Shown here: one piece after another, positions 33,513 to 35,840 of the stretch
Layout of the letters: every line of letters begins with the position of its first letter
How positions within the stretch are numbered: the stretch's first letter is position 1
Made by a program: the position numbers and the translations under genes
NCBI GenBank assembly: GCA_031263105.1
Contig: JAISGJ010000236.1
Span: forward strand, 1-35,883
Direction: 5' to 3'
DNA length: 35,883 nt
Source of the DNA: Coriobacteriales bacterium
Lineage (GTDB): Bacteria > Actinomycetota > Coriobacteriia > Coriobacteriales > UBA8131
The notes under the pieces: generated by a model
Database searches by the model: none
Seen by the model: the letters and a program-made list of their open reading frames with translations, nothing else
Told to the model about the DNA's origin: nothing

Positions 33513-33532
33513 TGTGCCGTCAGGTGCCGTTC
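33513..33532. repeat. Right arm-type integrase sites
   Basis: TGTGCCGTCA (33513-33522) and GGTGCCGTTC (33523-33532) repeat the left-arm motif in the same orientation with the same 10-bp spacing. They overlap the last codons of the integrase gene. Confidence 0.6.
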
Positions 33533-34614
33533 GCTGCCCTCGCGTAGGCCCGGTCGATCGCCTTCGCGTCCTCCTTGAGGTCCGTCAGCAGGGGGCGGAC
33601 GTAGCGGTTCAGCGTGGTGGTCACGTCGGTGTGCCCGAGCCACTTGGAGACGGACGCGACGTCGATGCCCGCCCGGATCGCGGCGGTCGCGAAGGAGTGC
33701 CGCAGCGTGCTCATGTTTATCCTCGGGACGTCGTGCGCCTCCCTGAAGCGCTCGATGAGGGTGGTGGCGCGGCGCGGCTTCACCGGGCGGCCGCCGTGGT
33801 CGGCCACGGGGCCGGCGATGCGGGTGACGCCGCCGCAGTCGCGCAGCGCGACCATCTGCCCGAAGGCGAAGTCGGTCATGGGGACCGTGCGCCGCGACTG
33901 CCTCGTCTTCGGCGGCGTCATGTCCGGCTCGCCGACCGTGTACGTGTAGGTCTGCCTCACATGTATCTCGCGCCTGCCGAAGTCGACGTGCCCCCACTCG
34001 AGCCCCAGTATCTCGCCCTTGCGCAGCCCGAAGCACAGGCCCAGGACGAGCAGCGCCCGCGTCTCGGCGTCCCCGGCGAGCCCGATCACCCTCCTGTGCT
34101 CGCCGAACGACGTGAGCCACTCGCCCCTGCGGTCGCGCGTGCTCTCCTTCGGCGGCATCCTGTAGCGGCCGGCCGCGGGGTTGTGGGCGAGCACCTCGTT
34201 GTCGACGGCGTGGGACAGGACGCAGCGCAGCGTGTCCCGGGCGTTCTCGGCGATGCTCGCCGTGTCGCACGCCGACAGCATCCTCTGTATCTCCGAGTGC
34301 GTGACGTCCCCTATCAGGCGCCCGCCGAGCCAGGGGCGTATCCTCAGCTCTATGTCGCGCCTGTACCCGGCGAGGGTGTTCTTGCGCAGTATCTCCTCCT
34401 TGTCCGGGAGGAAGTGGCCGTCGATGTACGCGGAGAGCGTGATGCGGTTCGAGCGCCCCCGCAGGTCGCGCTTGAGCATCTGCAGGTCGATCTCGGCCCT
34501 CCTGGCCTCCTTCGCCGTCCTGCACGAGGCCGTCTTGCGGTCGCGGCTGCCGTCGGGCCTGGTGCCGATGTCCACCTGGACGCGGTAGCCGGTCTTGGTC
34601 CTGTAGATGCTCAT
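33520..34614 (-). CDS. int: Tyrosine integrase
   Basis: A 364-aa phage tyrosine recombinase. The N-terminus has an AP2-like arm-binding beta sheet (YRTKTGYRVQVDIGTRPDGS) and a SAM-like core-binding domain (~60-150, LSAYIDGHFLPDKEEILRKN). The catalytic domain shows Arg I in LCFGLRKGEILGLEW and the motif II region STLRHSFAT, where Ser stands at the usual first His of HxxR. It continues with WLGHTDVTTTLNRY, with the His and probable nucleophile Tyr. It would integrate the phage at tRNA-Ser. AGGAGGCGCACG precedes the ATG. The gene ends beside the att core and arm sites. Confidence 0.93.
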   Translation of the reverse strand: MSIYRTKTGYRVQVDIGTRPDGSRDRKTASCRTAKEARRAEIDLQMLKRDLRGRSNRITLSAYIDGHFLPDKEEILRKNTLAGYRRDIELRIRPWLGGRLIGDVTHSEIQRMLSACDTASIAENARDTLRCVLSHAVDNEVLAHNPAAGRYRMPPKESTRDRRGEWLTSFGEHRRVIGLAGDAETRALLVLGLCFGLRKGEILGLEWGHVDFGRREIHVRQTYTYTVGEPDMTPPKTRQSRRTVPMTDFAFGQMVALRDCGGVTRIAGPVADHGGRPVKPRRATTLIERFREAHDVPRINMSTLRHSFATAAIRAGIDVASVSKWLGHTDVTTTLNRYVRPLLTDLKEDAKAIDRAYARAANGT

Positions 34615-34648: not shown

Positions 34649-34678
34649 TTGACACGCCCCCTGCGTCCGTGCTACAAT
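34649..34678 (+). promoter_or_regulatory. Consensus sigma-70 promoter facing the toxin gene
   Basis: TTGACA (34649-34654), 18-bp spacer, TACAAT (34673-34678): the best promoter I see in the window. It lies 35 bp upstream of the integrase start but fires the opposite way. No plus-strand protein follows; instead the sequence holds three hairpins ending in a terminator. Confidence 0.8.
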
Positions 34679-34684
34679 CTCCGT

Positions 34685-34765
34685 ACAAATTCCTTCGGGA
34701 TCGCCCCCGCGAGAGCGTGGGGCTAACAGGACTGGCCGAGCAGCAGCTCGGCCAGCTTCCTTTTC
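34685..34765 (+). ncRNA. Predicted three-hairpin small RNA convergent with PemK/MazF-like toxin
   Basis: From the predicted start near 34685 the RNA would fold into a short UUCG-type hairpin (TCC-TTCG-GGA, 34691-34700) and an 8-bp hairpin with one bulge and a GAGA tetraloop (34703-34723). A perfect 10-bp hairpin, CTGGCCGAGC-AGCA-GCTCGGCCAG (34732-34755), is followed by CTTCCTTTTC. The last hairpin lies inside the toxin's final codons on the other strand. A strong promoter, compact structure and terminator make an RNA gene likely. As no protein antitoxin is present, an RNA antitoxin role is the leading inference. Confidence 0.65.
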
Positions 34766-35124
34766 AGGGCGTCGAACTCCTCCTGGCCGACCATCCCCGT
34801 CTTGTTCGCCAGCCTCGCGCTGTCCCAGACCCCGGCCTGGCTCAGGAGGGCGACGCTCGGCCTTCCCTTGACCGTGACCTCGTGGTAGTGCCTCCCGCGA
34901 TTCCTGGTGGTCGAGAGCGGGACGCCCCAGAACAGCCAGTCGTTGAACTTCTTGACGACCAGCACCGGGCGGCGGAACATGGGCCCCTTCCCGTCCTCCT
35001 CGAACCCGACGTTCTCGCCGATGCTCGTCCAGAAGACGTCGCGCTCCTTGAACGACGCGTGGCGGCCCGCGTTGTTCACCCCCGCCTTGACGGGCATCCA
35101 CCTGCTGTAGTCCTTCTCGCCCAT
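34723..35124 (-). CDS. PemK/MazF-like toxin
   Basis: A 133-aa protein of the PemK/MazF endoribonuclease type. Visible are FKERDVFWTSIGENVGFEED, then PMFRRPVLVVKKFNDWLFWG and VPLSTTRNRGRHYH, corresponding to the beta strands around the MazF active site. VALLSQAGVWDSARLANKTG and a C-terminal helix (EEFDALKRKLAELLLG) complete it. MazF-fold toxins cut mRNA and arrest growth. ATG 35124 is chosen since GAGAAGAGAGGGAGC precedes it; an upstream in-frame start gives only low-complexity residues. No small antitoxin ORF adjoins it. Position between integrase and repressor suits a phage-defence or addiction gene. Confidence 0.82.
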   Translation of the reverse strand: MGEKDYSRWMPVKAGVNNAGRHASFKERDVFWTSIGENVGFEEDGKGPMFRRPVLVVKKFNDWLFWGVPLSTTRNRGRHYHEVTVKGRPSVALLSQAGVWDSARLANKTGMVGQEEFDALKRKLAELLLGQSC

Positions 35125-35195: not shown

Positions 35196-35840
35196 CTACT
35201 GCCCGACACTCCACGCGACGTAGTCCTGCTCGCTCGAGAAGATGCTGTTCCCGTAGAGCAGCTTCGCTATCCCGTCCTCCTCGAGGAAGTACAGGTGCTT
35301 CGTGAAGGACCCGCCGGGCGCGAGGTTCCCCGACGACATCTCGTCGGTCGCCCCCTCGACCATGAAGGCGGTGCTGTCCCGCACGCCGCTCACGGTCTGC
35401 GCCTGCCAGTCGAACGGGTTGAACGAGTGCTCGCGGTCGGAGCCGTTCGTGTAGGACACCGTCACCTGTATCGCGGGCTTGTCCTCGTAGTCGTACCAGC
35501 CCGCCTCCACCGCGTCGACCGAGACGGTCAGCCCGTCCTGCACCTCGTAGGCCGTGCCGACGGGGAGGTTCTGCGGGTCGGGGCCGGGCTCCGGCTCGGG
35601 CTCCTCCGCGTCGGGAGCCGCCGCCCCCGTGGCCCCGCCCGGCTCCTCCGCCACGGGCCTGTCGGCGGGAGGCGCGTCCTCGCCGCCGCCGCTGCTCGCC
35701 GCCGCTATGCCGATGCCGATGACGGCCACGACGAGGATCCAGAGCCAGGGACGCTTATAGACCGGCTTCTTCACCCGGGGGGGGGGGGGGGGGGGGGGGG
35801 CCGGGGTGGGGGAAAGGCACGGTGCGCGCAGGTGGACCAT
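35196..35840 (-). CDS. DUF4352-type membrane-anchored protein, N-terminus uncertain
   Basis: A protein of up to 214 aa. A basic segment (VKKPVYKRP) precedes a membrane helix (WLWILVVAVIGIGIAAASS). An acidic Pro/Gly linker and a C-terminal immunoglobulin-like DUF4352 domain follow (LTVSVDAVEAGWYDYEDKPA, IQVTVSYTNGSDREHSFNPF, NLAPGGSFTKHLYFLEEDG). It should sit outside the cell, attached to the membrane. Such genes beside phage repressors are probably lysogenic-conversion genes. Sequence upstream of ~35776 passes through a 24-base homopolymer, so the true start cannot be trusted and may be missing. Confidence 0.72.
   Translation of the reverse strand: MVHLRAPCLSPTPAPPPPPPPRVKKPVYKRPWLWILVVAVIGIGIAAASSGGGEDAPPADRPVAEEPGGATGAAAPDAEEPEPEPGPDPQNLPVGTAYEVQDGLTVSVDAVEAGWYDYEDKPAIQVTVSYTNGSDREHSFNPFDWQAQTVSGVRDSTAFMVEGATDEMSSGNLAPGGSFTKHLYFLEEDGIAKLLYGNSIFSSEQDYVAWSVGQ

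Follow-up and report, generated by a model that had tools for sequence, protein, structure and literature searches.

We analysed a stretch of 35,883 nucleotides (nt), here referred to as the window, which is one whole contig (JAISGJ010000236.1; G000:C174 in our numbering) of a metagenome-assembled genome of a Coriobacteriales bacterium that is 86% complete and 6.5% contaminated. The contig carries a prophage. On its minus strand, a DUF4352-like gene, a toxin gene of the PemK/MazF family (34723-35124) and an integrase gene follow one another in this order, while on the plus strand a promoter and a short structured RNA sit between integrase and toxin and run towards the toxin. Judging from comparative sequence analysis, this RNA is very likely an antitoxin of some kind.

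The anatomy of the element is established in the window as follows. The promoter (34649-34678, plus strand) consists of TTGACA (34649-34654), an 18-nt spacer and TACAAT (34673-34678), with a TG before the -10 element. It is of the sigma-70 type with an 11/12 match, is the sole such site in 2.4 kb, where shuffled sequences give 0.1, and is conserved in relatives. The RNA at 34683-34766 has a minimum free energy of -44 kcal/mol (z = -5.06), and none of 200 shuffles was equally stable. Its conserved core, recovered with the covariance models (CMs) R1 and R2 (34681-34727, plus strand), comprises a single-stranded 5' CCGUACAAAUU, two hairpins and a GCUAAC tail. Hairpin 1 (about 34691-34700, plus strand) folds as UCC-UUCG-GGA around a CC-UUCG-GG core, and its outer pair varies between UA and GC among relatives; hairpin 2 (34703-34723, plus strand) folds as GCCCCCGC-GAGA-GCGUGGGGC, and all six of its six modelled pairs show double changes in relatives. 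Further on, within the last codons of the toxin gene, there is a terminator-like perfect 10-bp stem (34732-34755) with a T-rich tail (34732-34766 in all, plus strand). This third stem is local to the window copy and is absent at this place in the related loci L010, L011 and others. The RNA would be about 80 nt long, or about 45 nt should its end fall just behind hairpin 2. An earlier reading made from the DNA letters alone (the sequence-only reading) had described a near-consensus promoter and three compact hairpins, facing and overlapping the 3' end of a MazF-fold gene. The promoter, the strand and the overlap were borne out; as for the hairpins, all three fold in the window, but only the first two are conserved in relatives. 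A small coding frame within the RNA is disfavoured, since the length differences among the RNAs are not divisible by three and the expected start of transcription is not followed by a start codon. Rfam gave no relevant match, either at the gathering threshold on the window or at expectation values (E) up to 1 on six related loci.

The toxin gene (minus strand) encodes 133 amino acids (aa) plus a stop codon. PF02452 scores its product at 33.5 bits (cut-off 23.1), and in profile comparison the solved MazF/EndoA structures are its closest solved relatives. The match to them begins at query position 24, therefore the N-terminal segment is an addition to the solved fold. An AlphaFold2 model (predicted local distance difference test 78, predicted template modelling score 0.70) searched with Foldseek gave a MazF fold plus an N-terminal helix. 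We infer that the extra segment is a candidate RNA-binding part. EndoA recognises UACAU, and the RNA, through its UACAA-like 5' strand, could act as a mimic of the toxin substrate.

The pair of toxin and RNA recurs widely. A paralogue on contig C104 of the same genome has a toxin 57% identical to that of the window, the same promoter and TACAAATTCCTTCGGGAT, then a second, different hairpin, all in the same convergent position. Its locus (L010, 30-3133) is a prophage-like module with a LexA-like repressor, a small membrane protein, toxin, RNA and integrase. The convergent layout is also present at the relatives L011-L013, L015, L018, L022 and L029, where L022 is a Coriobacteriia contig with a near relative of the window toxin. 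Within Campylobacterota we found it on a Sulfurovaceae contig (L021), a Nitratiruptor plasmid (L024), the Campylobacter jejuni plasmid pVir (L025), the CJIE4 prophage (L023) and plasmids of C. coli and Helicobacter. By profile search, the toxin subfamily is present in 59 of 397 Campylobacterota genomes and in only 4 of 400 genomes of the window's own class. We then scored the toxin 3' ends with a crude, automatic test, which required a -10 element matching in 5/6 positions or more and, after it, a fold no weaker than -12 kcal/mol; the antisense strand passed in 66 of 84 loci, against 20 for the sense strand, 11 further downstream and 9 after shuffling. By eye, most of the remaining 3' ends also show a recognisable element. 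Two of the loci have particular layouts: in C. jejuni phage CJIE4-3 (L023:1468-1977), the pair sits inside the structural operon, flanked by the genes for the large terminase and the portal protein, and L072 (G751:C83:1813-3324) has a tandem row of three subfamily toxins, every one of them faced by a convergent promoter and RNA of its own.

This distribution bears on whether the element could serve the neighbouring integrase as an attachment or regulatory site and have nothing to do with the toxin. The tyrosine integrase (33520-34614, minus strand; PF00589, E 1e-18) is a neighbour outside the system, and in both the window and L010 the element does lie between toxin and integrase. However, in plasmids, in CJIE4 (terminase-portal) and at chromosomal loci it occurs with no integrase beside it, and it tracks the toxin rather than the integrase. 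On this ground an attachment site was rejected, and a dependence on the integrase of either kind is scarcely conceivable.

Three RNA architectures were found, designated types A, B and C. The window RNA is of type A, whose 5' strand resembles UUACAAUU and precedes hairpin 1 (often C-UUCG-G), hairpin 2 and an A-rich tail. Type B, found in Campylobacter, Helicobacter and others and including the RNA of pVir, is longer, and type C represents another variant. In a consistent seed of 13 type A sequences (alignment A5), 100% of the cells are paired and 18 show double changes, compared with 5.1 after shuffling. When 39 distinct sequences were realigned with the CM (alignment A6), 97.4% were paired, with 67 double-change cells compared with 21.6. 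In this larger set, a shift of the partner by one to three columns drops pairing to 45-64%. Hairpin 2 of type B is likewise 100% paired, with 10 double-change cells compared with 2.8. CMs had been proposed in the sequence-only reading as the way to look for conservation beside homologous toxins, and with them the RNA proved conserved and covarying there, both type A sets standing above their shuffles. Moreover, the RNA co-evolves with the toxin: RNA type needs 2 changes on the toxin tree versus 25.8 when shuffled, where the types were assigned by reading the RNAs and hence not blind. In the same tree, the toxins of the window group branch from inside the type A clade of Campylobacterota, pointing to a transfer between phyla.

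The RNA models are also specific to these toxins. In the 2.9-Mb genome of the bacterium itself, the best match of R2 is the window RNA (E 4.5e-7), which belongs to the R2 training set, and the second best is the C104 RNA (E 2.6e-4), which is outside it; the next has an E of 2 or more. The two best matches thus sit exactly beside the two subfamily toxins of the genome. Among the 397 Campylobacterota genomes, 34 of 52 RNA matches (E up to 6e-6) are convergent at the 3' end of a subfamily toxin, and the remaining ones are mostly neighbours of toxin remnants, additional copies 110-205 nt beyond the first, or located at contig ends. The RNA is single-copy at nearly all loci, with a second copy only at L089, L110 and L050.

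Canonical PemK/MazF genes from Campylobacterota and from the own genome served as controls. An RNA-like element was present in 2 of 32 of them and a small open reading frame (ORF) just upstream in 30 of 32, whereas in the subfamily such an upstream ORF was seen at 31 of 79 loci, mostly non-homologous to one another, and no conserved small upstream ORF that could be a protein antitoxin was found among the subfamily relatives. Beside the window toxin there is no small antitoxin-like gene either; downstream is the integrase, and upstream is a DUF4352-like membrane or secreted protein of 214 aa (35196-35840, minus strand; PF11611 23.5 bits, below the cut-off), which is no antitoxin. Near the contig end, a run of 24 G at 35777-35800 falls within the ORF of this protein; it is probably an assembly or sequencing artefact and leaves the start of the ORF unsure. 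The sequence-only reading had noted that no small protein antitoxin adjoins the toxin, which is correct, and had named complete relatives as the place where one might turn up upstream of the toxin. The RNA is also present in elements that are complete, pVir and CJIE4 among them, and the relatives showed no conserved upstream protein antitoxin. One may still suppose that a protein antitoxin exists, unlinked or unrecognised, and that the role of the RNA is limited to tuning expression. There are indeed orphan toxins whose antitoxins are encoded far away, and an antisense RNA tuning a protein-based mazEF locus has been described (PMC8749433). Set against the contrast in upstream ORFs between the subfamily and the canonical controls, we consider this very unlikely.

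At five loci (L068, L084, L085, L095 and L096) the toxin reads in frame into nucleotide-sugar enzymes of the Epimerase, GDP_Man_Dehyd and RmlD families, where L068, L085 and L096 were matched to their families directly and L084 and L095 by sequence likeness. In all five of these C-terminal fusions, a TTGACA-TATAAT-type promoter and an RNA lie antisense within the linker. N-terminal fusions were also seen (L067 and L069), and the partners across all fused toxins further include a cytidylyltransferase and a CysN-like GTPase. The fusions may tie surface-polysaccharide genes to the toxin. Since promoter and RNA are kept inside a coding linker, the element is not merely the terminator of the toxin gene, and this retention is, at the level of sequence comparison, the strongest sign that the toxin would need the RNA nearby. 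It had been proposed that embedding the terminator stem in the last toxin codons links the two in evolution, but that stem is local to the window copy and explains nothing of the linkage, which is better shown by the fused ORFs that keep the whole promoter and RNA.

The same loci bear on the reading of the element as a bidirectional terminator of the toxin gene that stands by a chance promoter and has no antitoxin function. A few T often follow hairpin 2, and the third stem of the window copy is terminator-like, as such a reading would have it. Yet promoter and hairpin 1 are conserved as well, canonical MazF genes are without the element, and in the fused ORFs termination would cut off the enzyme. 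A terminator and nothing else is ruled out by the fused ORFs together with the conserved promoter, and an element devoid of antitoxin function is hardly credible.

A probable precedent for the antitoxin role comes from C. jejuni. According to PMC10470494, which cites Shen et al. 2016 (doi 10.1111/mmi.13431), strain 81-176 has a type I system whose antitoxin is the antisense RNA CjrA; cjrA is located on pVir (PMC7826846). Toxin-antitoxin (TA) modules have been reported on the pVir plasmids of both strains, 81-176 and IA3902. The pVir plasmid of 81-176 bears, between WP_011117587 and the relaxase gene, a subfamily toxin (WP_011117588) and its convergent structured RNA (L025), and at the same site IA3902 carries a YafQ-family protein TA (L197:30375-30924 versus L025:1480-1985), that is, a TA exchange. 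The partner of CjrA is named CjpT. Because TA modules are reported for both pVir plasmids, the RNA antitoxin comes from 81-176 and the YafQ TA occupies the site in IA3902, CjrA is very probably the type B convergent RNA of 81-176 pVir, the identity of the gene being deduced from these facts. It follows that an antitoxin role is likely for the RNA and that the arrangement is not wholly unprecedented. The locus type is the same, a subfamily toxin with a convergent RNA on 81-176 pVir that is absent from IA3902; the difference is that CjrA was reported as a single type I antisense case and that the pVir RNA is of the longer type B, while the window RNA is a two-hairpin type A.

Our best explanation of the locus is a two-part TA system of the prophage. 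The toxin would be a MazF-fold endoribonuclease of the PemK subfamily with an added N-terminal helix, and the antitoxin a short convergent RNA with its own promoter, made of a single-stranded 5' UACAA-like segment and two hairpins. The folded RNA would bind the toxin protein and keep it inactive, perhaps by presenting its UACAA-like segment to the substrate groove; after loss of the element, a stable toxin would be left without fresh RNA. That the pair is transcribed in this organism, that the protein is toxic, and that the RNA neutralises it and binds it directly are predictions of this scheme. We hold an RNA-held MazF-fold system of the prophage to be probable as a whole, and action of the RNA by binding the toxin protein would be about equally so. 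Of the two modes of action offered in the sequence-only reading, binding is favoured over antisense pairing because the helices are conserved, the single-stranded motif is shared and the RNA type follows the toxin clade.

The RNA might instead pair with the 3' end of the toxin mRNA, as in type I systems, and block translation or promote decay, which we regard as unlikely, though clearly less so than the other alternatives. The layout is convergent and overlapping, as expected for this mode of action. Complementarity alone, however, predicts neither helices kept by double changes across two phyla, nor a common single-stranded UACAA-like motif, nor an RNA architecture that tracks the toxin clade; in addition, the overlap is at the extreme 3' end or in the 3' untranslated region, away from the ribosome-binding site.

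Several points weigh against binding of the toxin by the RNA, or against the strength of its support. By its orientation, a convergent RNA will always be able to pair with toxin mRNA that reads through, which is compatible with antisense action, and the classing of CjrA as a type I antisense antitoxin (PMC10470494) argues for mRNA pairing if CjrA is this RNA. The CM alignments are fitted to the structure, so the pair counts lean towards it, as does the wobble asymmetry of 18 G.U versus 4 A.C cells, which favours the convergent strand. No signal was found for a pseudoknot formed by pairing of the 5' strand or of the loop with the tail, unlike in ToxI. Model R1, built from 13 Campylobacterota RNAs, places the window RNA correctly but weakly (13.7 bits, E 0.49 in 0.3 Mb). 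Finally, a few RNAs stand alone with no adjoining toxin. Well-formed type A RNAs that have a promoter and no toxin beside them are found at L150:993-1042 and L151:1031-1077 (plus strand), L152:1038-1085 (minus strand) and L154:1039-1089 (plus strand). Such RNAs are possibly remnants or toxin-free antidotes.

Compared with known systems, the arrangement combines features of several. Type II systems (MazEF, PemIK and EndoA) share the toxin fold and PF02452, but have neither the extra N-terminal helix nor the convergent RNA, and here there is no MazE-like or other small upstream protein antitoxin. Type III systems (ToxIN/AbiQ-AntiQ, CptIN and TenpIN) likewise have an endoribonuclease of MazF-like fold held by RNA, if our inference is right. 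Their antitoxin RNA consists of tandem repeats. It is located upstream of the toxin, in one transcript and before a terminator (PMC8167048), whereas the present RNA is downstream, on the opposite strand, single-copy and under its own promoter, and the toxin falls in PF02452, nearest to EndoA/MazF in sequence. With type I systems the locus has in common a convergent RNA that overlaps the toxin 3' end and is complementary to the toxin mRNA, a complementarity that is automatic. In type I convergent antisense systems such as BsrG/SR4 the toxins are usually small hydrophobic peptides, while the present locus encodes a MazF-type nuclease and an RNA whose fold covaries and follows the toxin clade. 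The sequence-only reading had thus rightly set the arrangement apart from types II and III, with a downstream, convergent, non-repetitive RNA, to which the single copy and own promoter can be added, although the idea has a precedent: CjrA had already been reported as an RNA antitoxin on C. jejuni pVir (PMC10470494).

What seems undescribed is the family as such: it spans two phyla, its RNA structure covaries, the RNA type goes with the toxin, and the element can be embedded in fusion genes. It is somewhat more probable than not that this family consists of true PemK/MazF toxins inhibited through direct binding by a single-copy, convergent RNA of two or three hairpins with its own promoter, neither type I nor classical type III, whose gene may sit antisense in a fusion linker. 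The window DNA showed no similarity to known phages, an exact 18-mer search of IMG/VR gave no match, and neither did PADLOC.

Consequently, many partnerless PemK/MazF genes that are annotated as type II toxins may be RNA-held. Such control would explain orphan toxins across Campylobacterota, including those of pVir and of the CJIE4 prophage of C. jejuni, and the known type I case of CjrA may work by another mechanism. The family would also provide a compact RNA that inhibits a MazF-type nuclease and whose natural variants lend themselves to work on structure and specificity, and it would mean that MazF-fold toxins came under RNA control in an arrangement unlike ToxIN.
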